Shown in pieces: positions 22,801 through 42,527 of a stretch of 42,628 nucleotides of DNA. The DNA lies in IMG/VR virus record IMGVR_UViG_3300036770_007877, positions 1-42,628 of that record; one strand, 5' to 3'. The notes below the pieces were generated by a model, which had not been told where the DNA came from, did not search any database, and saw nothing but the letters and a program-made list of their open reading frames with translations. A program made the translations under genes and the position numbers. The stretch's first letter is position 1. Each line of letters starts with the position of its first letter. This stretch comes from a virus.

Positions 22801-23391
22801 ATTGGACGAACCTATTCCTACTCCAGTGAAATTAATGTGAGCATTATAGAGTCTCTCTAAGGCTAATTGAAGAGTCTCTGTCTGGAGAGACATTACTGCT
22901 GCATCAGATGCAGTTACTAGTGCTTCCTCTACAGTAATTGCTTTAGCAAAGTGCCTATTCAAGGCCGCAGAATTAACATGCGCAGTTAAAATTGCATTTA
23001 TTTCATTTATTGCTTGTATAAATTCATTTAATTTTGAATCAATAATTGAAATTTCATCTTGTAAAAGATCCGTTGGAAATCTAAGCTTTAGTTTAGACTC
23101 ATCTATTCCGGCTGCTTTTGAAACGTCTTGATCTGTTATTGGTCCTGATAATATACCAGCCTTGTCTATAGCTTCCTTTCTTAGATTTCCAGCTTCATCC
23201 ATAATCTTTTGAAGCCTATTTGACAGAGTATTTCCGGCAGCACCCTGAGGGTTGATACCTAATGTTTTTTCAATTTGAAAAATAGCAGATCTTAAAGAAT
23301 TTATAACATCAGAACCAATCTCAGTAATATTATCTCTTACCTGAGGTATTTCAACAGATGTGTCTAATTTATTTGGATAATTTGATTTCAT
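19825..23391 (-). CDS. Fibre-like virion protein with beta-helix domain, shorter paralogue
   Basis: A 1188-residue protein, paralogue of the 1501-residue product just before it. Residues 1-115 are nearly the same in both (DTSVEIPQVRDN, NSLRSAIFQIEKTLG, GILSGPITDQDV, KLKLRFPTDLLQDE) and probably form the attachment domain. Long beta-rich stretches follow. Residues about 780-850 hold the virion-attachment-like phrase ISITPGVAVVNGIRYEYFG. Residues about 925-1000 start a pectate-lyase-like right-handed beta-helix (GHFTDIKKAVDYIKKF, then KEGQYTISEKIVIDTDMTI). The protein ends soon after the helix and lacks the 300-residue C-terminal extension of its sister. It could be a tail fibre, collar fibre or whisker. 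No enzyme motif can be shown. Confidence 0.75.
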   Translation of the reverse strand: MKSNYPNKLDTSVEIPQVRDNITEIGSDVINSLRSAIFQIEKTLGINPQGAAGNTLSNRLQKIMDEAGNLRKEAIDKAGILSGPITDQDVSKAAGIDESKLKLRFPTDLLQDEISIIDSKLNEFIQAINEINAILTAHVNSAALNRHFAKAITVEEALVTASDAAVMSLQTETLQLALERLYNAHINFTGVGIGSSNNSHSANQIYFDNQNISDISTSNNVQAVIEDIANLEGTALRRAILNISSNGIIRTGKVENANESNGKGEELVAVQAINYTVNTGLSKTIISFPSNPVLDKIPAKFDVLTIASSADEINNGDYLIESVSLSGSTLLSVTIFGGPKTILSNGTTGQITKNPYVAYNENSLNTTVRPRYLATNTPDIQVALPGSATIISSGAKPENINSTTNNILSLEVDGQSIQLDLYNADFSIQSIDSIVYKINKQCSQNKYNIFAYKIRSLKCYEIAISHVLPDLSDDLTKRSIKVISSSATSDIGMSYLIDRLAYGSTGNSFHLNGNIIGNFNKVITLTNSTLQLSPGSLNISNSNQNFSELGVREGHLCVISGAANSADDGTYRIGSVSDSIISLEYVGTNFAGQLTDTSQVFIVQSTASIGELDFVVGAEFLIDVFIDHNLDIHFTKRLKQSASLTVGNFYAVLSDISHNFITGNQSYTISVNTNGFATLSDGFSTGPAVYVSNSGRYKIFAPDLLSYVIITVYTNGVPASAKSAILSEGSEIPSDVLHLCRASYSPSLGMVLGTSGLGIPSVTDKRTTGTVDDTIVSEPFIQRYIEGPRNELRSSGIIRGLELESVAYNGDGTCTISITPGVAVVNGIRYEYFGVQNLIYRYSPALPLTENTFYIVFDEFGCIQISNEVQISGNPTSPFYDTNAAHICLISPDSISTTSIDLRLFIDKIDYKIISDITVSNDSRFGHFTDIKKAVDYIKKFRRMFPSFGTPTLMIKEGQYTISEKIVIDTDMTITGVGPSTVISRASGFYNIGTGDLTLNSSIIDNIPFVIGSETNTSSSTIVNGVTIKNLVIRSSAPGVASPIDQGVANTFFLIAQDLSTNADAVFRFENISFIGNTNLERGVVHEFAILLSRESGSTTNLNYGNLFVNNCYASFIGNETASFGAIINNDVSNYVENIIIDNFITKNVQPTYNASAYACFEIGTGTNLSTSNLVNINNVVLTSILDS

Positions 23392-23399
23392 TTTTACCT

Positions 23400-26300
23400 C
23401 TAGATTGAATAATAATTTACAAACAATCTTACGCCAATAGTTACATCGTTACCAAGATTAGTTCCAGAAAATTCTATAGTAATAATATTGTTTGGATCAT
23501 TATAATAATATGTATAATCAAATAATGGATCACCATTATTTGGAGGATACCATGTATTTCCATCCTCAGAGACTAGCAAACTTATTGATATAATTTTTGC
23601 GGCCATAACAGCTGGCATATTCAAGGCAAGCGTTGGTGTTCCTCCATTTCCTATTCTAGCGGCTATTTCATTGGAATATGTATGAGTAACTTTATTATCT
23701 GATACATAAACTAATCCAGTAGATGTATTTGGATCAACAAAGCTATCTTCAACCAACTCATCTGCAATAGTAACTAATCCATTAGTTACCCTCAATCTTC
23801 CTGATACTTCCATCTGGTTTGAAGAATTCTTCTTAATACCTATAGTTCCATTTCCAAAATATAAATTATTCGTCTCTCCCGCCGTAGGGCCATCAACCCT
23901 AATATTTCCAGATGAATCAATTTGTAAATGACCTTGTGCTATATCACCATAATTTATAGCCACTCTGTTTACAGATTGATCGTAACCTATAGACATGGTC
24001 TGAGTTCCGCCAGAGTTGGTTAGAATTTCCAAATCTTGTGAACCATCATTTGCAAGCAACATTCTGTTTGCAAATGAATCATTAGAGTCTCCAAGAACAA
24101 GTCTATGCCTTCCCGCAGTGTTTCTGGCCAGCTCGGTGGAGTTTCCTACGCCCAAAGCTCCAGCTACAGTAAGCATTCTGCTAACCCTATCTCCCCATGG
24201 TAAGGCATTTGTAGAATCTATGTAAGCAGTATCTATAGACGTGTTATTCGAAAGTTGGTTGCCATAAAAATCTATATTTGCATCAGGGAGCGAACCAACT
24301 GGGTCAAAAATGTGTCCAGCAGTATTTGTGGTTACAAATGATGTTTCAGCACCAGGAAGCCTGCAGGAGTTATTTGCAAACAACATATTCCTTGCATTAG
24401 AAGCGGAAAAATCTTGTATCCTAATATTTGAATTTATAAAGTTACAACCAATTACTTTTATATTTCCAAACTGTTCAGAAGCCGTTGAGTCAACGCTAGA
24501 TATTATAATAGCTCTTCTTCCAGTTCCAGGATTTGGATTTTCTGAATAATCAAAAGTGCAATTTTCTATAATAATCTCATAATTTAATTTATTGCCAGAA
24601 CCATCCTCTAATAATGGATTTAATATTTCAATATGAGATAATCTAAAATTAATATCTTTAATCTTAATTATTCCAGATGTTAATGTTTCAACATTTGTTG
24701 TAGGCACAGTAACCAATCCGGACCCGGCTATTTGAATACCAAAGGCATTATTAGGAACAGTGCCTCCCGCAGCAGTCAACCTGTCATCACTGGAGATTGG
24801 GTAATCTGTATATGATTTAGATATATCAATTACAGTAGAATCACCCTCTCCCTCTAATATGACCGGAAAATTAATCCAAATACCATCGAGATTTGATCTC
24901 TCGTACTTTGTCAAATTAGATACATCAAATGTAGAATCAAAATCCAAATTTATCTTATAAGTTCCAGATTTTAAATGAACCTTTGGAATACCAGCCTGAG
25001 GAAATACTTGGGAAAATCTAGCAGCATACCTGAGAGCTTTAGAAACATCTGTAAAATGCCCAATGCCGGGCTGTGGACTTACTGTAATTGAATTTAAAAC
25101 CTTAAGATCCAGATGATCTATAAAAAGCCTTAAATCTATTGGCGTAACAACTATATTATTGTATTCCAATCTTCCAAGAAGACAGTAATTATATGGATTA
25201 AATGGAGATTGACATATCGGAATAGTTGTAGTTGGCGGTCTGCAGACAATTTCTCCATATTCATTAATTGCAATAAATATATTATCTGAAGCGTTTGATA
25301 CGCCAGTATTTAGTGATATCCTTTCATCAAACTCAAAACGTTTACCTTTTACATAGCAAACTCCAGCAGATATATCTACAATATAGTTTCCGCCAGCAAA
25401 TTGTGGCGATGAGATAGAAATGTCCAAACCAGAGATAACTCCGCATCCTCTGGTTTCTTCAAGTGGTCTTTGCTGTATCTCTCTAATAACATCAGTCCCA
25501 ACGTCATCCATGCCCAGGGTTCCATATCTCATGGCTGGAGATATTTTTGGTAAGCCAGTGCCTGCCCCTGTGACTCTAGATTTTAGAGATTCAAAATTAA
25601 CTCTTGCTATTATAATATTTTCTTTATACGAAATTTGTTTAAATCCAAAAATTTCTACTAGAGTTTCTTTTGGAGAAACAAGTGTATTTAAATACGAAAC
25701 TATATTTGCTTTAGAGTTTATTAATAAAGTTAATTTTAATTTATATCTATTAGAATAAATATCAATATTATTTTTTATATAATTTGTTATTTGGAATTTA
25801 GGACCACCATCGAGAGAGACATATGGCTCACCATCCAACAGCTCAAATTTTAGATAGCCGGGATCTGTTGCGGTATATACTGAAGGATCTCCTTCATAAT
25901 TAATTATGGAAACTAGATTTTCAGCCGCATAAGTTGCCTGGCCGTATTCAAAAACTTTATTGTAGTTTAATCCTAAATTAGAATCCAAAAATACTTCTAC
26001 AAGAGAAGTTTTTGATAGTCCTGATAAAGTAGTGCTAAATTGAAGATTTTCAAAAGATATAGTAGAATCAACAACCCTAAGAATAGAAGCAGCCCCAACG
26101 GTACCTGACCAGATTCCAGTTTGAAGCTGTTTTGATTCTACAGTAATAGAGTTACTTGCAACTGATAAGACAACATAACTTCCATCATCAGAGCTAGATC
26201 CAAAAATTGTAACCAAATCTCCAACTTTAATTCCATATTCAGTAAAGTCCAATTGAGAAGTGGTTATAGAAGAAGTTCCAGCTAGCAAAAGAAAATCATT

Positions 26301-27905
26301 TGTTTCTAACTTAATATTTAAATCATCAAATTGTTTTCCTTGTACAAAGAACTGAGTGCCTACTCCGGTAAATATCTCAATTCCATCTATCAGCCCAAAA
26401 CCCAAGTCAAATATGGCGGTACCACTAGCTCCAGCGGAAATTGTTATTGTATGATTCTCGGAAGAAGAGTTGGCCAAGTTATGAACTATTGCCATCTCAG
26501 ATGGCCTATTCTCAAAGTCTACCCTATATGCAAGAATAGGGAGAGCATAAGCTGCAACTTGCTCATTAAACTTCTTGATGATAGAATCTAATGATTGGAT
26601 AGGCTCAGTAACATCATACAATGCAAACTGTATCGCAGTTGATCCGTCAACTGATACGTTTATAGAATTACTTATTGATGTTATTGCTGTTGCGTTAATT
26701 CCATTGGAAATTATTGTTGTTGCATTTGGATTTGCAACTTGAACTATATCAGCCTTAGTAAGTGCTGTTCCATAAATATATTTAAACTCTCTTGTTCCAA
26801 CCATCAGTCCAGATAGGTTTGATATCCTGTTTGGATTCTTATAAATAGAAGCAGTTGCTCCAACTGATGATGCCAATACAAAGCTTCCAAATATCTCTAC
26901 TGAGGTAAGCTCCTCCTGAACTGTAGTTATTACATTGGCAATTTGATATCTATTTACTATATCATTTGATGATATCTCTATAATATCTCCAGGCTCAATT
27001 GAGATGGAGGATATTATTGGGCTTGCTGTAAAAGAAACTGTAGAAGTATATTGTGTTAGATTTGGATTGTAAGCCGAAAATGTAATTGGCTCATCTGCAA
27101 TTAATAATAATCCTTCTGAGTTAGCATTAGAAGAGTCAAGATTTTTTTGCTTTCTTAAAAGTCCATTCTCATGGAAAAAGTATTGATGCACTTCAGACTG
27201 ACCACTAACTAATCCTAGCACATCCTCTATGGCACCTTGAGTATCATTTGAAGGAATCTCTATAGAAAAACCTGTGTTATCAAAATAAACTTGATCCGCT
27301 TTGTGCGATCTGTTTGTAAGAGATATTCCAGTTCCATCATAATTAATGTGCTTAGCAAATATGTCCTCTATCGCGGATTGAAGATCCTCTCCCGGAAGAG
27401 TTGTCATGCCTTCCGGGGAGGAGGTATCCCCTATTGTATCTAGGCTAATCGATAGCGCTTTGTGTCTATTAATTGCAGCAGAATTTATATGAGCTGTTAA
27501 TATTGAGTTAATTTCATTCAATTCTGTAGTTAAGACGGTAATTGAAGATAATAACTGAGAAACTTCATCTTGCAATAAATCTGTAGGAAATCTTAACTTT
27601 AACTTAGACTCATCTATTCCGGCATTTTTAGCGACATCCTCATTGGTTATGGGTCCAGAAAGTATCCCGCTTTTATCTAAGGCTTCTTTTAAGATGTTTC
27701 CATTTCCATCCGTAACTGCATTAAGTCTGCTGGCAACTGTGTTTCCAGTTGCCCCCTGTGGGTTTACTCCAAGGGTCTTTTCGATTTGAAAAATCGCAGA
27801 ACGTAATGAGTTTAATACATCGGAACCAATCTCAACAAGATTGTCTCTTACTGCTGGGATTTCTACCGATGTATCAATCTTAGCCGGATAGTTTGATTTT
27901 GGCAT
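23400..27905 (-). CDS. Fibre-like virion protein with beta-helix and extra C-terminal tip, longer paralogue
   Basis: A 1501-residue protein with the same first 115 residues as the 1188-residue neighbour (DTSVEIPAVRDN, LRSAIFQIEKTLGVNPQG). The middle is beta-rich. Residues about 950-1100 form the pectate-lyase-like beta-helix (GHFTDVSKALRYAARF, then HLKSGTYKINLDF and GEGDSTVIDIS). Residues about 1240-1420 look like a trimeric shaft domain (NTAGRHRLVLGD, LEILTNSGGTQTMSIGYD, GNIRVDG), and the last 80 residues are a beta-sandwich with LVSEDGNTWYPP and VTIGVRLFVNYYSI that could be the receptor-binding tip. An RBS (TAGGAG) precedes the ATG. The tip appears only in this paralogue. The receptor cannot be inferred. 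Confidence 0.75.
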   Translation of the reverse strand: MPKSNYPAKIDTSVEIPAVRDNLVEIGSDVLNSLRSAIFQIEKTLGVNPQGATGNTVASRLNAVTDGNGNILKEALDKSGILSGPITNEDVAKNAGIDESKLKLRFPTDLLQDEVSQLLSSITVLTTELNEINSILTAHINSAAINRHKALSISLDTIGDTSSPEGMTTLPGEDLQSAIEDIFAKHINYDGTGISLTNRSHKADQVYFDNTGFSIEIPSNDTQGAIEDVLGLVSGQSEVHQYFFHENGLLRKQKNLDSSNANSEGLLLIADEPITFSAYNPNLTQYTSTVSFTASPIISSISIEPGDIIEISSNDIVNRYQIANVITTVQEELTSVEIFGSFVLASSVGATASIYKNPNRISNLSGLMVGTREFKYIYGTALTKADIVQVANPNATTIISNGINATAITSISNSINVSVDGSTAIQFALYDVTEPIQSLDSIIKKFNEQVAAYALPILAYRVDFENRPSEMAIVHNLANSSSENHTITISAGASGTAIFDLGFGLIDGIEIFTGVGTQFFVQGKQFDDLNIKLETNDFLLLAGTSSITTSQLDFTEYGIKVGDLVTIFGSSSDDGSYVVLSVASNSITVESKQLQTGIWSGTVGAASILRVVDSTISFENLQFSTTLSGLSKTSLVEVFLDSNLGLNYNKVFEYGQATYAAENLVSIINYEGDPSVYTATDPGYLKFELLDGEPYVSLDGGPKFQITNYIKNNIDIYSNRYKLKLTLLINSKANIVSYLNTLVSPKETLVEIFGFKQISYKENIIIARVNFESLKSRVTGAGTGLPKISPAMRYGTLGMDDVGTDVIREIQQRPLEETRGCGVISGLDISISSPQFAGGNYIVDISAGVCYVKGKRFEFDERISLNTGVSNASDNIFIAINEYGEIVCRPPTTTIPICQSPFNPYNYCLLGRLEYNNIVVTPIDLRLFIDHLDLKVLNSITVSPQPGIGHFTDVSKALRYAARFSQVFPQAGIPKVHLKSGTYKINLDFDSTFDVSNLTKYERSNLDGIWINFPVILEGEGDSTVIDISKSYTDYPISSDDRLTAAGGTVPNNAFGIQIAGSGLVTVPTTNVETLTSGIIKIKDINFRLSHIEILNPLLEDGSGNKLNYEIIIENCTFDYSENPNPGTGRRAIIISSVDSTASEQFGNIKVIGCNFINSNIRIQDFSASNARNMLFANNSCRLPGAETSFVTTNTAGHIFDPVGSLPDANIDFYGNQLSNNTSIDTAYIDSTNALPWGDRVSRMLTVAGALGVGNSTELARNTAGRHRLVLGDSNDSFANRMLLANDGSQDLEILTNSGGTQTMSIGYDQSVNRVAINYGDIAQGHLQIDSSGNIRVDGPTAGETNNLYFGNGTIGIKKNSSNQMEVSGRLRVTNGLVTIADELVEDSFVDPNTSTGLVYVSDNKVTHTYSNEIAARIGNGGTPTLALNMPAVMAAKIISISLLVSEDGNTWYPPNNGDPLFDYTYYYNDPNNIITIEFSGTNLGNDVTIGVRLFVNYYSI

Positions 27906-30460: not shown

Positions 30461-30976
30461 CTATTTATCGTCAACTTTTTCCATTAATTCTTTTTTCTTA
30501 TCTTCTCTTTTTGAATCTGGAATTTTATGGTAATCTAAAAGATTTTCAACATAGTCTTCAACTTTTTTCTCACCTTTTTGTTTTTTGTCAAATTGAAGTT
30601 GATACTGAAATGCTTCAATCTCATGCTCTCTATTTAGATAATCTTTTTTTCTGTTTATTTTTTTCTTTTTTCCATACTCATCAATATGCTGAAAAACATG
30701 AACTAATTCATGAATAACATATTTCATTATAGTTTCATGCGACTTTTTAAGAAGTTTTTTACTAAGAATTATATTTCCATTTATAGTTTTTGCTGTTGTA
30801 TCAATATTATCAAATCTTATTGATACAGATTTTAAAATCCAATAATCAAAATTATTATCATCACAAATTTCTTTAGCAACATCATTGTTAATTAATGATT
30901 TTCTAATTTTATCTAAAATTTTTATTTCATCTTCTAAAGATGGTTTAACAATTTTTTTTGAAATTTTAATTATCAT
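30461..30976 (-). CDS. Putative zinc metallopeptidase (HExxH zincin)
   Basis: A 171-residue protein with the zincin motif HELVHVFQH (His89, Glu90, His93) in a helix, and a second helix NREHEIEAFQYQLQF (residues 115-129) that supplies the likely third ligand Glu119 or Glu121, an E-x-E-A arrangement typical of small phage and bacterial gluzincins. There is no signal peptide, so it acts in the cell or the prohead. It is very Lys-rich after residue 100. It overlaps the upstream small gene by 11 bp and is followed by a neck-type gene. Head location makes a role in prohead processing possible, but the usual prohead proteases are serine enzymes, so this is only a hypothesis. Confidence 0.7.
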   Translation of the reverse strand: MIIKISKKIVKPSLEDEIKILDKIRKSLINNDVAKEICDDNNFDYWILKSVSIRFDNIDTTAKTINGNIILSKKLLKKSHETIMKYVIHELVHVFQHIDEYGKKKKINRKKDYLNREHEIEAFQYQLQFDKKQKGEKKVEDYVENLLDYHKIPDSKREDKKKELMEKVDDK

Positions 30977-31336: not shown

Positions 31337-33100
31337 ATGAATTATAGATTTTTAAAGTTGGCTAACTTATTAAAAATAGCTGAGGTTACTGAAGCTAATC
31401 AGAAACTAAGAGAAGAATTTTTTCAAAAATTTAAAGAAAAAAATATAGAAGAAAATATAGAAGAAGAAAATATAGAAGAAAGTGTAGAGGAAAAGAAAAA
31501 AAGAGAAGAGAAGAAAAGAAAAGAAGAAGAAAGGATTAGAAGAAAACCTTTTGCTATAGCAGATCAATGGTATAAAGCATTTTATAATACAGATCTGTAT
31601 ACTAACTGGAAAAATTTTGACACATTAGATGCTGTATTATCTTATACCCTATCTTATATCAGAGAAAATAAAGATTTTGTTTCAAATAAAAATTTTGTTT
31701 CAAGAGAGGCCAATCAATCTGAAAATAAAAATCTTGAATATTTAAAGAAAAAATATCCCAAGTTACAGGATCAAATTTCTCAATTGAAGCCTCAATTTTT
31801 ATCTTGGCTAAATTCAAGGTTTGGAGAAAATCCTGAAACAAAAGAGGTACATTCAATAGAAGATTGCTTACCTACTTTATCTAGGTATCAAGAAAAGCTT
31901 GATTCGTTAAAGGCAAAATTTAATGATGATAAAGATTTTAAAAATGTGATTATAGAAAGATTTGGAGATATTAATATCTCAATAATAAAAAATTTTACTG
32001 TAGATGATATGGAAAAAATTATGGCCATATCCGAGAGAAAAAAGGGAATTAAGACAATAATTCCGGAAGGATATATTCCAAACGAATATATTGGAAAATT
32101 TGGAGAATGGAACCTTTGGATGCCGCTTACAAGGGAGGATTCTATTGCGATTCCGGGTTTTGATCCAGATACTTTAAAACCGCATACAACTTGGTGCACA
32201 GCAAGAACTACTGGTTCTAATTTGTTTTATTCATATTCTGGAGGTGGAACCATATTATTTTATGCGATAAAAGATGATCCAAATCCGGAAGATGATAATG
32301 CTTATCAAAGTATCGGTTGGGACTACGGTGAGGTGCAATACAGGGGAGATGGAACGGAAACGGTAAATAGAGCAAATAAAGGAATGTACGAAGAGGATCA
32401 CCGCGCATTATTTGGATCGGCCTTTGATGCCATTTATGAGGCTATGGAAAACGAGGTGGAACAACTTGGCGGACAACATCCTGTTGCAGAAAAAATTGAA
32501 GAAGCTGCATTTGGAGATCAGGAAGTATATAAAGATCTTATCAGAGGAGTGGAGCCGGATGGTGTTAGGGATATAGATGAAGTGGTGAGAGAAAAAAGAA
32601 TAGAACTTGCCGAAAACCCTTCAATACCTCTGGATAATTTGAGGGAATTCTCTAAGGATAAAGATGCTAGGGTTAGGAGGGCGGTTGCCTCAAACGAATC
32701 AACACCTCCGGATGTTTTGAGGGAATTATCTGGAGATGAAGATGAAGGGGTTAGGGCGGCGGTTGCCTCAAACGAATCAACACCTCAAGATATTTTAAGG
32801 AAACTATCTGGTGATGAGAGTCCTATTATTAGGGAGGGGGTTGCCAAAAACCCCTTAACACCTCAGGATATTTTAAGAAAATTATCTGGTGATAAGGATT
32901 ATAGGGTTAGGGCATTTGTTGCCGAAAACCCCTCAGCACCTCAGGATGTTGTGGAAAAATTGTTAGAAGATCCGAGTGAGAGTGTTAGGTTAAATGCAAA
33001 AAAAACCTTAAAAAAATTGCAAGAAAAACAAGCCTCCACAAAGGAGAGACGCTTCAATAAGATAGCAAGATACTTAAGAATCAGCAACCTTAAAAATTAA
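31337..33100 (+). CDS. Tandem-repeat protein with LRV/HEAT-like C-terminus, unknown function
   Basis: The only plus-strand gene: 587 residues. Residues 1-20 (RFLKLANLLKIAE) and the last 20 (RRFNKIARYLRIS) carry a similar basic amphipathic motif. Residues about 25-72 are a very charged Glu/Lys helix coded by an almost pure purine run (31430-31545). Residues 75-250 are helical. Residues about 255-365 form a distinct domain with PHTTWCTARTTGSNLFYSYS and a GGGTILFYAI strand; I recall this Trp-Cys-Thr-Ala pattern from large-phage proteins of unknown function but cannot name it. Residues 424-553 are five 26-residue repeats (core AxNPSxPxDxLRxLSxDxDxxVR) resembling leucine-rich-variant or HEAT repeats, hence protein binding. 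Weak RBS. Its stop shares TTAA with the convergent endonuclease. A packaged or regulatory protein is possible. Confidence 0.8.
   Translation: MNYRFLKLANLLKIAEVTEANQKLREEFFQKFKEKNIEENIEEENIEESVEEKKKREEKKRKEEERIRRKPFAIADQWYKAFYNTDLYTNWKNFDTLDAVLSYTLSYIRENKDFVSNKNFVSREANQSENKNLEYLKKKYPKLQDQISQLKPQFLSWLNSRFGENPETKEVHSIEDCLPTLSRYQEKLDSLKAKFNDDKDFKNVIIERFGDINISIIKNFTVDDMEKIMAISERKKGIKTIIPEGYIPNEYIGKFGEWNLWMPLTREDSIAIPGFDPDTLKPHTTWCTARTTGSNLFYSYSGGGTILFYAIKDDPNPEDDNAYQSIGWDYGEVQYRGDGTETVNRANKGMYEEDHRALFGSAFDAIYEAMENEVEQLGGQHPVAEKIEEAAFGDQEVYKDLIRGVEPDGVRDIDEVVREKRIELAENPSIPLDNLREFSKDKDARVRRAVASNESTPPDVLRELSGDEDEGVRAAVASNESTPQDILRKLSGDESPIIREGVAKNPLTPQDILRKLSGDKDYRVRAFVAENPSAPQDVVEKLLEDPSESVRLNAKKTLKKLQEKQASTKERRFNKIARYLRISNLKN
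32606..32995 (+). repeat. Five 78-bp coding repeats (26-residue LRV-like units)
   Basis: Five successive 26-codon units. The second and third share an almost perfect run of more than 25 bp (around 32681 and 32759), which points to recent duplication or conversion, whereas the others have drifted. The number of repeats is therefore likely to vary among relatives. Confidence 0.85.
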
Positions 33101-34251
33101 GCCACCGGAATTCCATACTTATCCATATATCTTTTCATGGTGGTGGCTCCAATCTTCAGTTCTCTTGCAGCACCTTTCACAGAACCTCCATCCTTAAGAG
33201 CTTTTAATAATACTTCTTCGGTCAGCTCGGATTGAAATCTAGCATTCTTGGAGCCCGTAGATTCATTGATTTGGATTCCATGTTTATGGGCATAGTTATG
33301 AACCGTAGTTAAATTAACTCCCAATTCTTTTGCAACCTTTTCAAGACTTTGAAATTTATCATAAAGGCTTTGGATTACCTCCTTATTGCAAATCTCTTCA
33401 AAATCCCTGGGGTCTCCGAGAGTTTTTGCTTTTATTCCAATTTGATATTTTCTATCCATATAGATGGTTGCGTCCTTATACATAAATTCAACAATATTTT
33501 GCAGAATCCTGTTGCCGCCGTATTCAAGGGTATTTATGCCGGAGTTTAATCTGGGTATTTTGGATTTTGATTTAGCAGGAAGATTGCATTCCTCATCAAA
33601 AATCTGGACAATGCCAGAGAGAAAATCCTTGGTTCCTCTGACCGAGAAATGAACTTGTTCTACACTTCTGGAGCCATCGTTTTTAAGATGAGTATAAAAT
33701 GAACCATCTCCATCAAAGTAACCTCTAATGAAATGGTGCTTTAGTGGATGATTGAGTATCCATTCGGGAAATTTTAGGGTATGAGTTTTTCTTTCGGTTA
33801 TTCCAAATCTCAGTAGATCTTGGCACATCTGCTTTGAGGAAATAGCTAACTCTACACCCTCTGTGTCATTCCAATTGGGATTTGCTCTAGAATTTTTATT
33901 TACCTTATGATATATTGGATTCTCAGCTTTTAATAAATCCTTTATCATTTGCAGCTGTGCTACATCTTTCTTAGCGAGACAGATATACAATACTGTTGAA
34001 TCTTTCTTAACACATCCATCTGCAGCTATAAAACCAGCGACATAAAAAGATTCCTCAGTATCTCTTGAGAAAAACTGGTGATTGCAGTTGTAGCGTACTG
34101 GCTCTGGGGTTTTTAGGCCGTAGCTTTGCATGTATCTTTTTATTGTTGTAGCATCAACACCATAGTGTCTACCGACAGCTTTTAAACTTCCGTGTTCTGC
34201 AAATGCTTTTTCTAGAACTTCTTTGGTAAATATTTTTGAGTATAATGACAT
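33097..34251 (-). CDS. LAGLIDADG homing endonuclease with three HTH units
   Basis: A 384-residue protein; I chose the ATG at 34251 because GGAAGG lies 6 nt upstream, and the 38 extra residues of a longer frame overlap the connector gene. Two LAGLIDADG motifs are present: YVAGFIAADG (70-79) and FIRGYFDGDG (174-183), each with the acidic residue needed to bind metal, so a monomeric two-motif enzyme is expected. Helix-turn-helix units occur at 8-47, 290-326 and 343-382; the first and last are clearly related (KAVGRHYGVDATTIKRYM against KGAARELKIGATTMKRYM). Such enzymes cut one specific long site and spread their own gene. It is free-standing: no intron or intein partner is visible. It probably targets a nearby structural gene in rival phages. 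Confidence 0.9.
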   Translation of the reverse strand: MSLYSKIFTKEVLEKAFAEHGSLKAVGRHYGVDATTIKRYMQSYGLKTPEPVRYNCNHQFFSRDTEESFYVAGFIAADGCVKKDSTVLYICLAKKDVAQLQMIKDLLKAENPIYHKVNKNSRANPNWNDTEGVELAISSKQMCQDLLRFGITERKTHTLKFPEWILNHPLKHHFIRGYFDGDGSFYTHLKNDGSRSVEQVHFSVRGTKDFLSGIVQIFDEECNLPAKSKSKIPRLNSGINTLEYGGNRILQNIVEFMYKDATIYMDRKYQIGIKAKTLGDPRDFEEICNKEVIQSLYDKFQSLEKVAKELGVNLTTVHNYAHKHGIQINESTGSKNARFQSELTEEVLLKALKDGGSVKGAARELKIGATTMKRYMDKYGIPVA

Positions 34252-34269
34252 AATGCACCTTCCTTTATT

Positions 34270-34297
34270 ATTATACCAATAATAATAGAAGATGCAA
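34270..34297 (-). promoter_or_regulatory. Candidate extended -10 promoter of the endonuclease gene
   Basis: The minus strand holds TGGTATAAT (34278-34270), an exact extended -10, with TTGCAT 16 bp upstream as a weak -35. Transcription would start near 34263, at the edge of the ribosome binding site, which is uncomfortably close to the start codon. A separate promoter would let the endonuclease be made apart from the late genes. Confidence 0.35.
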
Positions 34298-34312
34298 ATT
34301 CTTCGGTATCTA

Positions 34313-34903
34313 TTAAACGATTTTTCTTGAGCGCTGGTGCCGTAAACGTACCCAGCTCGGGGCACCGGAACTCAAGTTCGAATAAGTGCCGAAAGAAACT
34401 GGATTTGGACGAATCGAATTTTTAATAAATTTCAATCTTTCTCTATATGAAGTTAAGAAGTTATTGTAATTGGATTGAAGGAAATCGCCTAACTGAGGTG
34501 GCTGGTAATTGATGCCGCCATCCGAAATATTGAAATCTCTTCCCTTTTCTAGTAGGGCCTGAGAAGCTACCGCTAAAATATAAGCTCCTTCTACAATGGC
34601 ATGCGAAAAGGTTTTATGAATAATGGGGTCGGCAAAAGAGTAGGAGGTGAAGAAGGGAATCATATTGAATTCTGATAGGGCAGAAATCAAGAAAGTAACC
34701 AAGATTTCATCGGAAAATACAGGACAGTCAATCATTACCATATTACCATTGGCATCATAGATAAAAGCGCCAAACTCATCTCTTGCAGGCTTCTTTCCTT
34801 CGGAGCGTAATCTTGCTTTTAAATATTTTAAGAGTATGTTAATTCCGTAAATTTCTTGATCCGAGAAATCAAAATTAACATCATCGCCTATTGCAATTGG
34901 CAT
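34313..34903 (-). CDS. Probable head-tail connector protein
   Basis: A 196-residue protein, largely helical. The N-terminal part is mixed and contains a beta hairpin (FGAFIYDANGNMVMIDCP). Residues 65-125 form helices (SDEILVTFLISALSEF, SHAIVEGAYILAVASQALLEKG). Residues 130-175 (ISDGGINYQPPQLGDFL, then a helix YNNFLTSYRERLKFIKNSIR) match the C-terminal pattern of many head-tail connector proteins, in which a GG, a PP and a long helix follow each other. Position after the capsid gene and before the neck proteins agrees. The C-terminus is basic (RLRHQRSRKIV) and overlaps an inverted repeat. GGAG lies 5 nt before the start. Identification is by pattern and position. Confidence 0.55.
   Translation of the reverse strand: MPIAIGDDVNFDFSDQEIYGINILLKYLKARLRSEGKKPARDEFGAFIYDANGNMVMIDCPVFSDEILVTFLISALSEFNMIPFFTSYSFADPIIHKTFSHAIVEGAYILAVASQALLEKGRDFNISDGGINYQPPQLGDFLQSNYNNFLTSYRERLKFIKNSIRPNPVSFGTYSNLSSGAPSWVRLRHQRSRKIV
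34327..34375. repeat. Imperfect inverted repeat at the 3' end of the connector gene
   Basis: Arms TTGAG-CGCT-GGTGCC (34327-34341) and GGCACC-GGAA-CTCAA (34361-34375): 5 + 6 paired bases around a symmetric 4 x 4 internal loop, with a 19-nt loop. It lies inside the coding sequence, about 75 bp before the endonuclease start. No T-run follows, so it is not a normal terminator. It may be an RNA structure or a remnant of the endonuclease insertion. Confidence 0.5.
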
Positions 34904-35812: not shown

Positions 35813-36820
35813 TCAGACGGTTCCGGTAGCAACACCGCGAGGGTTGACGATACCGATACCAATGATTTCGTTGACAACCCAACCGAGCTTGAGTTGCTTG
35901 GGCTCGTCTGCAGGAAGAACTTCGATGTCCTGACGAACAGGCATTACACCGACGAACTCTGGATCTGCAGTGGCGAAGCCACGACCCGATGGAACAACCT
36001 TGGAGACGATGATATCGGCGCCAAAGATGTGGCCATAGAGGCCGGTCTGGAGGAGCTCACGTTGGGTGACTGGGTCAACCTGTGAGTTTGAGCCACCAGC
36101 TGATTCCCAGGCGAGGATATCGGTGAACTCATTGATGTTGAGGAAGTACTTGGCAGTGACAAGGTCCCAACGGTCAATAGCGCGTTTGAGGTTGAGGAGG
36201 CCGTCCTTCTGGAGGGTAGCACCAGTTGGCGAAAGGTCTACTGCAGCGTTCTCACCACCAAGGGTGCTGTCACCGGCGAAGGCGAGGGCTGCGAAGACGT
36301 TGGCATCCTCTTGTGCTTGGATCTCCTGACGAGCTTTTTGCTGTGCACGGTCAATGACGTTGAATCTACGACGTTTGACTTCAGCGATGCGAACGGTTGG
36401 GTTTGAGACAATCTCAAACTCAGGAACGGTTACGCGGTCACCGAAAACGCGTGACTCAGGAGCAGAGCCGTTGCTTGAAACAACGACGGCTGCAACGTCA
36501 ATATCACGGTCATAAACAGGGAGTGCGCCTTGGGGTAGTGGATCGACAACGAGTGCCTTACGAGCTACACCTTGGTAGTCCAAGTTTCTGCGGATTGGGT
36601 TTGCCATTGCTTGACCAAGAGCAATCTTTCCTTCTTGGGTCATGAGTGCTTGCTTGATCATCTCGTCTCTTTGCGAGTCATTTAGGCTTGGAGCAGTTGC
36701 CTGAACCGAGCTTGAAGACTGAAGATCCTCGATGATAGAAGCGTACTTGACGATGTTAGAAAGTGCTTCTTGGACATTGGAAGCATTTAATTCACCATGG
36801 GTATTGAATAGATTTGACAT
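35813..36820 (-). CDS. Major capsid protein (HK97-fold type)
   Basis: A 335-residue protein with a strong AAGGAG, followed by a perfect terminator. An N-terminal helical segment (residues 12-75) precedes a beta-rich part: GALPVYDRDIDVAAVVVS (about 97-114), VTVPEFEIVSNPTVRIAEVKRRRFN (128-152), a helix RAQQKARQEIQAQEDANVFAALAF, and a later LYGHIFGADIIVSKVVPSG followed by FVGVMPVRQDIEVLPADE. A long helix with many charged residues, then the 'isgaDI..s..vp' phrase and closing strands, is typical of HK97-fold capsid proteins of myophages. The gene is visibly richer in GC than its surroundings. No cleavage site can be assigned with certainty. Assembled as hexamers and pentamers. Confidence 0.8.
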   Translation of the reverse strand: MSNLFNTHGELNASNVQEALSNIVKYASIIEDLQSSSSVQATAPSLNDSQRDEMIKQALMTQEGKIALGQAMANPIRRNLDYQGVARKALVVDPLPQGALPVYDRDIDVAAVVVSSNGSAPESRVFGDRVTVPEFEIVSNPTVRIAEVKRRRFNVIDRAQQKARQEIQAQEDANVFAALAFAGDSTLGGENAAVDLSPTGATLQKDGLLNLKRAIDRWDLVTAKYFLNINEFTDILAWESAGGSNSQVDPVTQRELLQTGLYGHIFGADIIVSKVVPSGRGFATADPEFVGVMPVRQDIEVLPADEPKQLKLGWVVNEIIGIGIVNPRGVATGTV

Positions 36821-36845: not shown

Positions 36846-37523
36846 TCAGGCTACGGTTGATGCGGCATTGCCGAGGTAGAATACTGCGTGGTACTCAGTT
36901 ACAGCTGCAGCGCCAACTGCGGTTGCGGTTGTAGAGACCAGTGACGAATCTGAAACTGGTGCGACATAAATTGCTACTTGAGCTCCTGCGGTGTTTGCTG
37001 TAGTTAGGTGGCCAGGATCGGCTCCACCGGTGGCTCTAGCCTCAAGTCTATCGTTGGTTGTTGCTGCTACGGCTGGGGTAAGGTAAGTTGCTGCTGCACC
37101 GGCTATGCCGTAAAGACCGGCCTGTGCCCAAACAGTGACTTTGCCAGAGGCGCGATCTGTGGTTGGACCAACTACAACTGCTCCACCAACTACGCCAAAT
37201 TGAGTTGCTCTACCTGCATTGGAGCCAATGAGGCTTCCAAAGAGTGTGCCATATTCTGCTCCGCCCTCGTCAGCCAAGCCGCCAAGTTTTGGACCGTTTG
37301 GTGTACCAACGGCTGCAGCGGTGCGCGTACCTCTTGCGAAGTTTACTGTACCACCGAATGCCAATCCACCAACTGCTCCAACGTCGGCTGCATAGCCTTC
37401 AAATGGATCAGTTACTGTTGCTAGCTCGACGTACTCGCCGCCGAGAATTTGACCTGCATCATCATCCTCAAGGTCAAATTGACCTAGGGGAAGGTATCCA
37501 GGCTGTAATACTTTTAATGCCAT
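36846..37523 (-). CDS. Probable capsid decoration or accessory capsid protein
   Basis: A 225-residue Ala/Gly/Val/Thr-rich protein directly before the major capsid gene, 25 bp apart, with AGGAG 7 nt before its ATG. The first 35 residues (GYLPLGQFDLEDDDAGQILGG) hold an acidic stretch; the rest is predicted beta with small residues (VGGAVVVGP, AQAGLYGIAGAAATYL). No cysteine is present. GC content is high as for the capsid gene, which suggests very high expression. Placement and composition suit a head decoration protein or structural accessory, but a minor head or tail role cannot be excluded. Confidence 0.6.
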   Translation of the reverse strand: MALKVLQPGYLPLGQFDLEDDDAGQILGGEYVELATVTDPFEGYAADVGAVGGLAFGGTVNFARGTRTAAAVGTPNGPKLGGLADEGGAEYGTLFGSLIGSNAGRATQFGVVGGAVVVGPTTDRASGKVTVWAQAGLYGIAGAAATYLTPAVAATTNDRLEARATGGADPGHLTTANTAGAQVAIYVAPVSDSSLVSTTATAVGAAAVTEYHAVFYLGNAASTVA

Positions 37524-37583: not shown

Positions 37584-40500
37584 TTATTTTTTACTTTTCT
37601 TAGACATGATGTCTTGAACCCAAGCATATTTGGCTGAATAATTTCCCGTAGGAACGCTACGAGCTATATCTTCCATTTTCTTCTTGCGCTCAAAACCGTT
37701 TTCAACTAAACCACCATCTCCAATGGACTTAGAAGTTCTTGCTTCTCTTGGGTAAGCTGACTCATAGAGTTCGGCTCCCGTCTCTCCTTCCATGGGATAA
37801 AGATCTTTGTAATCTTCCTTTGGTGCTTCAGGTTTCTCATCGTACATGCCTTTTAGCCTTGTAAAATAAGAACGGAGTTCTGGATCTTGTACATTTAGAT
37901 CTGTTATAGCATCTTTGTAATAAGATCTTGAAAAATCATCTGCATTTTTAAATAACGACTCTAACTCATTTTGTAGTGAGTTATTAGTAGAATTATTAGA
38001 AACATTAGCAGTTTTGTGAATACTTTCTAGAGTTTCTTTAATTTTTGCAAATCTAGACTGCTGTCTTATTTCTTTTTTCATTCTTCCTCTCTCTAATGGT
38101 GTTACTTTTTCTCTTCTAATTGGTTGTTTGCCACTGATTAACTTTTGAACATCTCTCATTCCGCCTGGAAGATTCATTCCAAATTCCAGAATTAAATCTA
38201 ACAAGGTATTGAAGTATTTTTGTTTTTCAACTCCGGTGGCTGTTTCAAATCTACTGTAAATATCTAAATATCCTGGCGAATCTGCAGCAATGATATAAAG
38301 AAGTGATTTAATATTACCCTTATTTCCAAGAGTATATAGAGCCCATCTAACTGCAGCAGGATCTCTAGAGAATGCAGAATCTAGGAATGCATATCTAAAT
38401 TCTGTTCCAAAAATTACAGCTGGAGGAACTAGCTCTATAGAATATCTTTTGCCAAAATAATTCTTTAGACTATTTAAAGCTCTTTGTTTTTCATCTCCAA
38501 CTAAAGAATCTACAAGATCAAAAGCTTCATCAATTTTTCCTGAAGAAGCTAGTTTTACAGATTCTGAGATGCGGTATTCTGAAACTCCCTTTGCTGCATT
38601 GGTAATTTCTTCATCAGTTGCAGAATCTCCAAACATCTCTCTAATTCCGCTAAGAACATCCATACCCATTAGCTGGTAAGAGAGTGCTGCAACGCCAACT
38701 GTTGCGCCTGCAATTAAAACATATTTTGGAATATTTGAACTAAATCTCAGTTTAGACAACTCTCTTTTTGACTGTTCTGATTCTAGCAGTTTTTTATTTA
38801 AAAGAGCTTCTCTTTCTGCACGACCTGCAGCATCTAATTGTTTGCCTCCGCCCAAGGCTTCAGATACCTCCTCAGTAAGTCTTCTCGAGCTAGCAGCTGC
38901 CGGAGCAGGGGTGGTCACTCCCCTGCTTCTTGATGCAGCAGGACTGGCCTCAGGAGTTACGCTAGTAGAGGTGGTTCTAGATGCAGGAGCTGCGCCAGTA
39001 GGTGCGGCAGAGGCAGTTAGTCTATCTGCAAGCTTATCTAGAGCTCTTGGATCCGAAGAAACCCAAGCGTCAGTAATCTCATTTATATTACCTCTATATT
39101 CTGGTTTTAGTCTAGGTTGGATTAATCTCTTGATATCTCCAACATCACTAATATCCTTAAGCATAAGGCCGTCAGAAATAGAATTATATATTACTCTAAT
39201 ATCTGATTCGCCATTAGTTAATAGTTTTTTTACTGAATCAGAACTAATTGCTGCATCCCACTTATCTATTCTTAATCTTGCAGCAGCCGAAGCGCTTGGT
39301 TCGCCTATTACCTTTGCGACTTGCTGTGCTTGTTCTCGATGCAAACTGGTTGGGGTAATTTTGTTAAAGAAGTTAGAAACAATATCACCAAATGCTCCAA
39401 TAGATGCTGCTAATTTAAGTAAACGATTTTTTCTAGCAGAGAAATTATCATTATCAAATCCATAATCCAAGGAAGCTACTCTATTTGGATTTAAGTTCAT
39501 ACGTCTTTCTCTGGGTCTAATTCTTCCATATCCAGGAACTGACTCAGGACCCATTCTTTGAATCTTTCTTGTTCTGGCTTGTCCGCCAGCTGTTGCAAGA
39601 TCTTTATTTAACATTAAATCAAAAATTTCGCTAAAATAAATAATCTTATCATTACTAGAAAGTGATCTGAATTTTTCATATAGTTGTGCCAAATCTATTC
39701 CTGGAAATTTTCTTTCCATTAGAATAACAACTGGATTTATTCTATATCTTGGGCCTCTTTGCGATTCAATTATACCATTAATTTGATTTAACTCATCTCT
39801 AACAAGCCTGACGGAACCAGGATTTCTTCTCTCTGGGCTCTTTGAGATTACATAAGTAAAAGTTGTACCCAGTAAAGTTACTGGAGGATCCAACTCTATT
39901 ACTTGAGCCCCCTTTCCTCTTTGTGCAATAACTTCTGGTGGAACATCATCAACGTCAGTACTTTCTCCCTTTGCAGCTGGAATGTTTTCTTTATCTTTAT
40001 CTCCAGGGCCTCCGGCACCAGTTCCTCCGGCACCAGTTCCTCCAGTGTCAGATCTTCCGGCACCATCGGAAGAACCTCTACCGCTAAACAATGATGGCCC
40101 ATAAGTATATAAGGCATAGCCAGCAACACCGACGCCAAGCATTCCGAGAATTTTTAGCAAGCTTGAGTAAGATTGCCTTACTGTTCTGGCGGCAGATGAT
40201 AAATCACCAGATCTGATTGTACGAGATGCATCATCTGCAATTCTTGATATCCTATCTATTGCACTATTTAAATTAGAAAGAGAAACGCTATTTACATCAA
40301 CTCTATCTACATTGATTCTTCTAAGAGAATCCTCCATGCCAGAAAGCTGTCTAGAAATGCGTTCTAGAATTTCACTTAAATTATCATCAATAGTATCTAC
40401 TACTTCATCTGTCAGATCGTCAACATCGATATCAGAAATTGTTGCAGGAGTTACTGAGGTTGTTACGGTTGGACTTCCAGGAATCGAAGAAGGGCCAGGA

Positions 40501-42527
40501 CCAGTTGTTACAGATGGTCCTCCGGGAACTGAGGGAGTACCAGGAACAGTTGTTACAGTTGGACCTCCGGGAACTGAGGGAGTGCCAGGCCCAGTTGTTA
40601 CAGATGGACCTCCTGGAGTGGTAGAAACACCAGGGCCAGTTGTTACGGTTGGACCTCCGGGTGCACCAACTGATGGTCCAGGGCCAGTTGTTACAGATGG
40701 GCCTCCGGAAGTTGGAGAAGAGCCAGGACCAGTTGTTACGGTTGGCCCTCCGGAAGTTGGAGAAGAACCTTTTGATACTAAAACTAATTGATTTAATGAT
40801 TCTTCGGTTTTTCTAGCTCCATCCTGAACTGTAATGGCTAAAGCATTAACAACTTGATCTGCATTTTTTCCATCGCTAGATACATTGATTGGTGTTAGAA
40901 TAATTTGATTTTTAACTTCGTCTGCAGTTCTTTTGAAGTTTTGATTTGCGGCCTCTACCTGTCGCATTTTTATTTCATTAAGTTTGTAAAAAAACATTGC
41001 TCTAGATTCTTCGCTAACCTGTCTAGAAGCAATACCTGGTTTGCCTCCAGGTTTAGGTCCGTCCACAATAATAGTCTTTTTTAACTCTTCTATTTCAGCA
41101 TCGGTAATTTCTCTTCCCAAATATTTGGATAGTTGTTCTCTAATTTCACTTTCAGCTTTGGGACTAGATAAACCTCTAGATAATTGTAATATTTGAGGAT
41201 CTTTAATATCTACTTTTTTCTTTTTAACAACCTTAACTATAGGTTCAGATATAAGTACTTGAGCTCTATTTGCTTCATTAAATTGAATATTTCTGATTAT
41301 ATTTTTTACAGATTCTGTAAAATCAATTTTCAAAAAGTTTGGAGATTGAATTAATGCTTGAATCTCGTTAAATATTTTTCCCTGCTTGCCTGGATTTGAA
41401 CGTTGACCACCAATTGTCTCCATCCAATTTTTTATTTCTTCTTGTACACTTGAGATTAGTATTTCTTTACTAGGATTTTTATTATTTTCAAGTTCTTTCC
41501 TGAAACCTTCCATAAGCCCCGAAATATCATCTGTTAAACCTTCTACAAATTCATTTTCAGTTTGAAGCATATTTTCAGTCAATCGTCCTAAATCTTTAGC
41601 CTTACTTGCTTCTTCGGTTACTGGAGGTGGCTCTACTTTTAGCATACCAGCTGATGCAAGAGGTTTTCCATCCGCAGGAATTGATGTTGAATATCTATTA
41701 AATAAATTTAATAACTCTTTTTCATCCGCATTGGCTTTTATAATAGAAATTAATTCTTTTTTTAACTGTTCAAACTCGACAGGCTTGCCGTCAGCTGTAA
41801 GTCCCAAAAAGTTTTTAGCAGCATTTTCCGCAAGGGAACTAATATTGCTATCAGATGATTTTTTCTTACTCAGCATATCATCATAAAACGTGGCTACTCC
41901 AAATGTGGCTGCACCTGGACTCTTATACATCTGTCTATAATATGCCTTTTCGGATAAGCCTGCTATATCAACAGGCTTACCAGTTTCTGTGTCAAGAGGC
42001 TTCTTAGCTTCCGAAGGCTTTACGGACGGCCCCTCAGCTTCTGGAGGCTTTACAGCCGGAGCTTCGCTTGTGACTGCGGGAGTTGCGGAACCTCGTAATT
42101 TCTGTAGTTCTGCCCTTGGATCATTGGAAGTAAGTATTCTTAAAATTTCATCATAAGATTCTACAGGTGCACCTGAGGTTTTGAGTGCATCCTTAAGGAA
42201 ATCCTCAATTACTGAAGCCCCCCTGCTAGGATCAAGGTCAATGCCTTTAAGTTTATAAATAAATTTAGAAAAATTAGTTCCAGTAGTATTATTAGACGTA
42301 CGAGTTGCGGAAAATGGCTGTCCTTCGAATAAATTTAAAATACCAGCCTTTAATTCTTCTGAGCCTTTTGTGATGCCAGTAAGGTACTCAAGAGCTTTTG
42401 TGGGAGTTTTACCAATAAGCGGATTAATTCCGGCAGTTTTTGATAGATTTCTTTTTTCAGAAAAAGATTTTAAAATCTCAACATAATTATTAAAGATTTC
42501 GGAATCTATAGATTTGTTTATTCGCAT
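37584..42527 (-). CDS. Large modular head-region protein with two TM-plus-domain repeats
   Basis: A 1647-residue protein that I cannot assign to a family. Residues about 1-590 are helical and charged. Residues 590-690 are a Pro/Gly/Thr repeat. Then two copies of one module follow: a hydrophobic helix (about 790-812, LGMLGVGVAGYALYTYGP; and 1266-1288, LIAGATVGVAALSYQLMG), a spacer, and a related domain (about 876-1010, IELDPPVTLLGTTFTYV; and 1362-1480, IELVPPAVIFGTEFRYAFL; both end with YFxxxxDLxL and a Gly-rich turn). After each copy comes a basic motif with K-L-A or K-I-K. There is no signal peptide. Location before the capsid genes suggests an internal head protein, scaffold or ejected membrane-spanning protein; helices and TM segments favour ejection. 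GAGGT precedes the ATG, which overlaps the previous stop by 10 bp. Confidence 0.75.
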   Translation of the reverse strand: MRINKSIDSEIFNNYVEILKSFSEKRNLSKTAGINPLIGKTPTKALEYLTGITKGSEELKAGILNLFEGQPFSATRTSNNTTGTNFSKFIYKLKGIDLDPSRGASVIEDFLKDALKTSGAPVESYDEILRILTSNDPRAELQKLRGSATPAVTSEAPAVKPPEAEGPSVKPSEAKKPLDTETGKPVDIAGLSEKAYYRQMYKSPGAATFGVATFYDDMLSKKKSSDSNISSLAENAAKNFLGLTADGKPVEFEQLKKELISIIKANADEKELLNLFNRYSTSIPADGKPLASAGMLKVEPPPVTEEASKAKDLGRLTENMLQTENEFVEGLTDDISGLMEGFRKELENNKNPSKEILISSVQEEIKNWMETIGGQRSNPGKQGKIFNEIQALIQSPNFLKIDFTESVKNIIRNIQFNEANRAQVLISEPIVKVVKKKKVDIKDPQILQLSRGLSSPKAESEIREQLSKYLGREITDAEIEELKKTIIVDGPKPGGKPGIASRQVSEESRAMFFYKLNEIKMRQVEAANQNFKRTADEVKNQIILTPINVSSDGKNADQVVNALAITVQDGARKTEESLNQLVLVSKGSSPTSGGPTVTTGPGSSPTSGGPSVTTGPGPSVGAPGGPTVTTGPGVSTTPGGPSVTTGPGTPSVPGGPTVTTVPGTPSVPGGPSVTTGPGPSSIPGSPTVTTSVTPATISDIDVDDLTDEVVDTIDDNLSEILERISRQLSGMEDSLRRINVDRVDVNSVSLSNLNSAIDRISRIADDASRTIRSGDLSSAARTVRQSYSSLLKILGMLGVGVAGYALYTYGPSLFSGRGSSDGAGRSDTGGTGAGGTGAGGPGDKDKENIPAAKGESTDVDDVPPEVIAQRGKGAQVIELDPPVTLLGTTFTYVISKSPERRNPGSVRLVRDELNQINGIIESQRGPRYRINPVVILMERKFPGIDLAQLYEKFRSLSSNDKIIYFSEIFDLMLNKDLATAGGQARTRKIQRMGPESVPGYGRIRPRERRMNLNPNRVASLDYGFDNDNFSARKNRLLKLAASIGAFGDIVSNFFNKITPTSLHREQAQQVAKVIGEPSASAAARLRIDKWDAAISSDSVKKLLTNGESDIRVIYNSISDGLMLKDISDVGDIKRLIQPRLKPEYRGNINEITDAWVSSDPRALDKLADRLTASAAPTGAAPASRTTSTSVTPEASPAASRSRGVTTPAPAAASSRRLTEEVSEALGGGKQLDAAGRAEREALLNKKLLESEQSKRELSKLRFSSNIPKYVLIAGATVGVAALSYQLMGMDVLSGIREMFGDSATDEEITNAAKGVSEYRISESVKLASSGKIDEAFDLVDSLVGDEKQRALNSLKNYFGKRYSIELVPPAVIFGTEFRYAFLDSAFSRDPAAVRWALYTLGNKGNIKSLLYIIAADSPGYLDIYSRFETATGVEKQKYFNTLLDLILEFGMNLPGGMRDVQKLISGKQPIRREKVTPLERGRMKKEIRQQSRFAKIKETLESIHKTANVSNNSTNNSLQNELESLFKNADDFSRSYYKDAITDLNVQDPELRSYFTRLKGMYDEKPEAPKEDYKDLYPMEGETGAELYESAYPREARTSKSIGDGGLVENGFERKKKMEDIARSVPTGNYSAKYAWVQDIMSKKSKK
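40456..40769 (-). repeat. Coding 45-bp minisatellite (15-residue Pro/Gly/Thr repeat)
   Basis: About seven units with the core GGP[TS]VTTGPG encoded in the 1647-residue gene. Units alternate strictly Thr, Ser, Thr, Ser, Thr, Ser, Thr at one position, so the copying unit may be 90 bp. One unit carries an extra residue. It probably makes a stiff, extended linker. Confidence 0.85.

Follow-up and report, generated by a model that had tools for sequence, protein, structure and literature searches.

The window analysed here, an IMG/VR record of 42,628 bases, contains genes for structural proteins of a large myophage. Most of them lie on the minus strand, and they include a sheath gene (phrog_2839 match, 7e-21) and a gene with a weak tape-measure match. 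Near one end of the window lies a giant open reading frame (ORF; 37584-42527, minus strand) that encodes 1647 aa from an ATG start and has homologues at the same place in relatives. It is followed by a decoration-like gene of 225 aa (36846-37523, minus strand) and by the major capsid protein (MCP) gene (35813-36820, minus strand; phrog_2522, 4e-74), whose product is 52% identical to phage G gp27. The decoration-like gene is so called by position, as its homologues lie between the giant and MCP genes in relatives. The phage G capsid decoration gene, gp26, occupies the equivalent position, and a sequence match between it and the window's gene was not found. The first ~45 residues of the MCP constitute an N-terminal extension that is present in the window's phage group and absent from gp27. 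On the other side of the giant gene, the 3' end of a small acidic-protein gene that is truncated by the contig end (42518-42628, minus strand) was recognized from its sequence and from homologues in relatives. It ends ..KVAYNIERTIDELNEVDILCE and overlaps the start of the giant by 10 bases. Many relatives show this overlap too, which suggests that the two genes are translationally coupled. An earlier note on this DNA had placed the giant gene beside the capsid genes; in the loci of relatives that were inspected this order is conserved, the giant gene immediately preceding the decoration-like and MCP genes. The giant belongs to the head operon.

The giant is the longest member that was found of a family in which both ends are conserved and the middle evolves fast (all of the following coordinates are on the minus strand). 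Residues 1-33 (42429-42527) form a conserved N-terminal segment that ends KTAG, matches a relatives-only profile (E 6e-14) and is a candidate head-targeting propeptide. This segment is followed by a variable region that is unmatched in relatives (residues 34-545; 40893-42428), a Pro/Gly/Thr-rich linker built from 45/90-base tandem repeats (40459-40766), a first module, a second linker, a second module and a C-terminal domain. Module 1 comprises a hydrophobic helix (residues 788-810; 40098-40166), a Gly-rich spacer of low pLDDT (residues 811-873; 39909-40097), the first copy of a domain that we refer to as IELxPP (residues 874-980; 39588-39908) and a basic tail with ~19% K+R (residues 981-1050; 39378-39587) that the relatives' profile follows in register as far as residue 1009. 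Module 2 comprises a hydrophobic helix (residues 1270-1290; 38658-38720), a spacer for which AF2 predicts helices with pLDDT 80-95 over most of its length (residues 1291-1357; 38457-38657), the second IELxPP domain (residues 1358-1463; 38139-38456) and a basic tail (residues 1464-1509; 38001-38138) that is covered by the relatives' profile, with ~28% K+R over residues 1461-1510. The conserved C-terminal domain (residues 1510-1647; 37587-38000) carries the invariant motifs G.GGL.EN and P.GN. GGLVEN in the core of this domain could be a candidate L-x-E protease site, although we offer this as a thought only.

The earlier note had described two blocks repeating the same order of elements, and this was borne out: a hydrophobic helix, a spacer of ~70 residues, an IELxPP domain and a basic tail occur twice. 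Both domains also have the described beginning, IEL-x-PP, and the described end, YFxxxxDLxL (IELDPP at residue 877 and YFSEIFDLML in domain 1; IELVPP at residue 1364 and YFNTLLDLIL in domain 2). The weak but ordered match from which an old duplication had been proposed was upheld by Smith-Waterman alignment of the two domains (score 103, compared to 26 +/- 4.5 in shuffles, with 0/2000 shuffles as high) and by BLASTP (27% identity over 113 aa). Structure prediction of both regions with AF2 gave the same order of elements in each (helix-strand-strand-helix-helix-helix-helix-helix), with pLDDT ~80-95 in most of each domain, although overall values were low (63.8 and 66.3). The helix-plus-spacer stretches of the two modules do not align above chance (the score was reached by 273/2000 shuffles), so the two copies alone prove a repeat of the domain and not of the helix. 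A module profile from which the window was left out matches both copies and stays in register all the way from the helix to the basic tail, scoring 56 bits for copy 2 (residues 1258-1519) but only 2.1 bits for copy 1 (residues 788-1009). In a phylogenetic tree the two window copies are sisters (97/90), although their branches are long and may be falsely joined. A second module was not found in any relative, so the duplication, though it looks old, seems to be confined to the window's lineage, subject to the same long-branch caveat.

Among all 19-residue windows of the protein, those starting at residues 1270 (KD 1.58) and 788 (KD 1.53) are the most hydrophobic, and the windows at 788 and 1270 precede the domain starts at 874 and 1358 by 86 and 88 residues, respectively. 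Shuffles of the 1647-aa protein commonly reach a KD maximum of 1.58 (p 0.56), and hydrophobicity was therefore rejected as proof of membrane helices. Support for the helices comes instead from their position: in 19/20 non-redundant relatives, compared to an expected 2.5, the most hydrophobic window sits 60-150 residues before the single domain.

Used as a query at full length, the giant had no match in phage records or in a single-sequence pattern scan of IMG/VR, and its relatives were reached through an MCP search, which returned 80 loci. Within these loci the C-terminal domain is present in 76 ORFs. A profile search for the duplicated domain, which the earlier note had recommended, was also carried out, and the iterated IELxPP profile recovered >20 relatives with one domain each, located 62-111 residues after a hydrophobic helix. 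Iterated profiles of this kind can drift; the constant position of the domain after the helix argues against drift here. The relatives carry one module or the helix only. In one locus (L110:2575-5420) the giant seems to be split, the first ORF having the conserved N-terminus and the next the C-terminal domain. In another (L133:7325-9330) the MCP gene is divided into two ORFs that are separated by an ORF of 270 aa, an arrangement like that of an intron with a gene inside it. The family is encoded beside the capsid genes of large tailed phages that are distant kin of Bacillus phage G. Among genome contigs of bacteria and archaea, no relative was confirmed. As for a link to phages that encode bS21, no S21 gene was found in the window or in four relatives, which are possibly incomplete. 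The conserved parts of the giant fall in none of the sequence families of Pfam, PHROGs or the PDB, apart from one weak PHROGs match (0.005) in one member. Foldseek searches of both models against the PDB, and of the model of module 2 plus C-terminal domain against BFVD, gave nothing at E <= 0.001, which does not in itself establish a new fold. A second look at the fold matches (VIA) gave weak rows only, mostly over the helical spacer of copy 2, and a known fold may yet underlie the domain.

Comparison with phage G bears on which gene of the operon acts as the scaffold. In relatives, an operon gene of ~1110 aa (L014:1434-4775 and homologues) is a fusion of what in phage G are two separate genes, gp19 and gp21: its N-terminal part matches gp19 (E 7.5e-33) and a head maturation protease family, and its C-terminal part matches gp21 (E 4e-11). 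The scaffold-like position is thus taken by a gene other than the giant, and the candidate assignment of the giant as an orthologue of the gp21 scaffold was rejected, because gp21 matches the fused protease gene and not the giant. The giant resembles scaffold-core proteins such as gp21 in that its gene falls in the interval from the protease-bearing gene to the capsid genes, next to that of a small acidic protein, but it differs from them in having a hydrophobic helix. No homologue of the giant was detectable in the part of phage G that was examined.

The KTAG ending of the N-terminal segment is an instance of a motif, K-x-A, that was counted within residues 11-60 of the head-operon families of loci L003-L136 and compared to shuffles. 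K-x-A is strongly enriched in five of these families: the giant (43/55, compared to 20.7 +/- 3.4 in shuffles), family A184 (27/28, compared to 10.8 +/- 2.7), the protease fusion (24/24, compared to 9.8), the MCP (50/53, compared to 15.2), in which it takes the form IVKYAS, and the acidic protein. These counts are inflated, as members of one family are not independent. Family D230 lacks the motif (0/24), and the downstream genes carry it at chance level (21/132, compared to 22.8 +/- 4.2). Because ~20% of genes elsewhere in the genomes of two relatives also carry K-x-A at residues 11-60, it was rejected as a stand-alone marker of head proteins, and a narrower form of the motif showed no enrichment among the window proteins. 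Given this lack of genome-wide specificity, we treat K-x-A as a lead, a possible cleavage site of the prohead protease or a possible targeting signal.

The core of the C-terminal domain is found in other proteins as well (L079, L080, L131-L136), and seven of these loci (L080, L131-L136) each encode two different proteins that contain it, as though it served as a tag common to head proteins. In six of the eight loci a partial peptidoglycan-binding-like motif is present in a C-terminal stretch, either fused or in the next gene and at the same operon position (L079:2171-2449, L080:8826-9101, L131:7037-7303, L132:6307-6573, L134:6671-6937 and L135:6665-6931). PG_binding_1 was detected in 5/6 of the members with this motif, as a partial match below the curated cut-off (best E 0.0039), and a profile of the stretch matches matrix metalloprotease chains in the PDB (best 7e-4). 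A helix of KD ~2 is present in five of the distant relatives (L079, L080, L132, L133 and L136). Motif and helix together are weak hints that may point to a role at the cell envelope.

Taken together, we lean, with modest confidence, towards the giant being an internal head protein, a component of the prohead core of a jumbo myophage, with a possible membrane-seeking helix. We favour this reading because of the gene order, the conserved N-terminus, the sharing of K-x-A and the presence of the C-terminal domain in so many ORFs of the relatives, because the scaffold-like sequence resides in another gene, and because the helix is conserved in position. Precedents in T4 and SPN3US contribute as well. 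Internal head proteins of T4 have N-terminal propeptides that were shown to target them to the prohead and that are cut off by the prohead protease, an N-terminal propeptide with the same fate has been proposed to target SPN3US gp47 to the prohead, and the proheads of both phages assemble on the inner membrane (PMC9026906, PMC7411985). Counting against this reading are the occurrence of K-x-A in other genes of two relatives and the non-independence of family members, a hydrophobicity no higher than in shuffles, and the failure to detect a phage G homologue or a fold match. The likeness to T4 IPI-III and Alt and to the SPN3US E proteins gp53 and gp54 is one of working principle, namely head genes with a conserved N-terminal segment and a variable remainder. 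The giant has no sequence match to these proteins in PHROGs or Pfam, and it has K-x-A where the cleavage motifs of T4 and SPN3US are glutamyl (T4-like, S/A-x-E, A-x-E). Unlike them, it also has a hydrophobic helix and a duplicated domain. A literature search for virion proteomics of the giant's phage group found none, and a search for proteomics of phage E3 turned up nothing.

Under this internal head protein reading, the giant would be brought into the prohead by its N-terminal segment, perhaps together with the C-terminal domain. There it may be trimmed by the prohead protease, at K-x-A or close to it, and the mature protein would remain in the head with the DNA. More speculatively, the Gly/Ala-rich helix might meet a membrane, either the host inner membrane upon ejection or the membrane on which the prohead assembles, and the second module might supply a second membrane contact. 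Ejection, and any channel, would be the least certain steps.

The earlier note had gone further in suggesting that the protein is stored in the head, injected and made into a membrane channel. Storage is compatible with our results, as the conserved N-terminus looks similar to propeptides that target proteins to the capsid. Injection and channel formation fared less well, since the relatives manage with one module or the helix only, the helices are marginal, and no match to a pore or ejection family or fold was obtained. In a phage with a contractile tail, passage through the membrane may already be the task of tail proteins, which likewise counts against a channel. We therefore consider it rather unlikely that the giant travels with the DNA and inserts its helices into the inner membrane of the host, where they would make up or line a conduit, although the conserved helix position and the KD ~2 helix of distant relatives that share the C-terminal core, some with the partial peptidoglycan-binding-like motif, would suit such a role. 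Giant phages such as SPN3US do store ejection proteins in the head (PMC7411985). Opposed to this are the marginal hydrophobicity of the helices, the sufficiency of a single helix in most relatives and a peptidoglycan-binding match that is partial and below cut-off. The internal core ejection proteins gp14, gp15 and gp16 of T7, which are stored in the head and proposed to cross the envelope, offer an analogy only; T7 is another kind of phage, and the window's phage has a contractile tail. The giant had no Pfam, PHROGs or Foldseek match (E <= 0.001) that would liken it to ejection proteins of the T7 type, although a distant kinship is conceivable.

It is similarly doubtful that the giant is a prohead-assembly factor, belonging to the core, that tethers the growing prohead to the inner membrane of the host by its helix and is cleaved or lost when the head matures. 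Its gene adjoins those of the protease fusion, the acidic protein and the MCP, as would be expected of such a factor, but anchoring in T4 is done by the portal with YidC (PMC9026906), and anchoring alone leaves the fast-evolving middle unexplained. Least probable is an internal shell component with its hydrophobic helix buried in a protein contact, for which marginal hydrophobicity would be suitable and which could correspond to the internal densities seen under the five-fold vertices of all jumbophages studied except Bellamy (PMC5646251), because phage G is among the phages with such a density yet has no detectable giant homologue, and because a long, repeat-rich, rapidly changing middle would be unusual in a part of the shell.

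A bolder extension of the internal head protein reading, which we regard as unlikely, is that these contractile jumbo phages of the phage G kinship encode a new family of head-stored, membrane-seeking proteins, that the shared K-x-A propeptide reflects an undescribed prohead-protease specificity, and that module duplication builds a longer trans-envelope device. Many jumbo phage head proteins have no assigned role. The present work defines a conserved head-operon family, with its domain limits, that is set apart from the scaffold and is unnamed by Pfam, PHROGs and PDB sequence searches, and K-x-A provides a testable idea for the prohead-protease site in the phage G kinship. If the helix inserts in membranes, the family would bear on how a very large genome crosses the envelope or how a giant prohead is anchored.

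Several other genes of the window stand out. Within the structural operon, the opposite strand encodes a 587-aa protein with leucine-rich-variant/HEAT repeats (31337-33100, plus strand; PF01816, 8e-29), and a probable endonuclease gene with HNH-type matches (33097-34365, minus strand; phrog_4645, 3e-53) sits among the structural genes. Another gene of the operon (30461-30976, minus strand) has weak metallopeptidase-like matches (SprT-like, 0.0013; eCIS_core, 0.013). Two adjacent large proteins of 1188 and 1501 aa (19825-23391 and 23400-27905, minus strand) have a near-identical N-terminus, KSNYP.K.DTS.EIP.VRDN, and look like paralogues.
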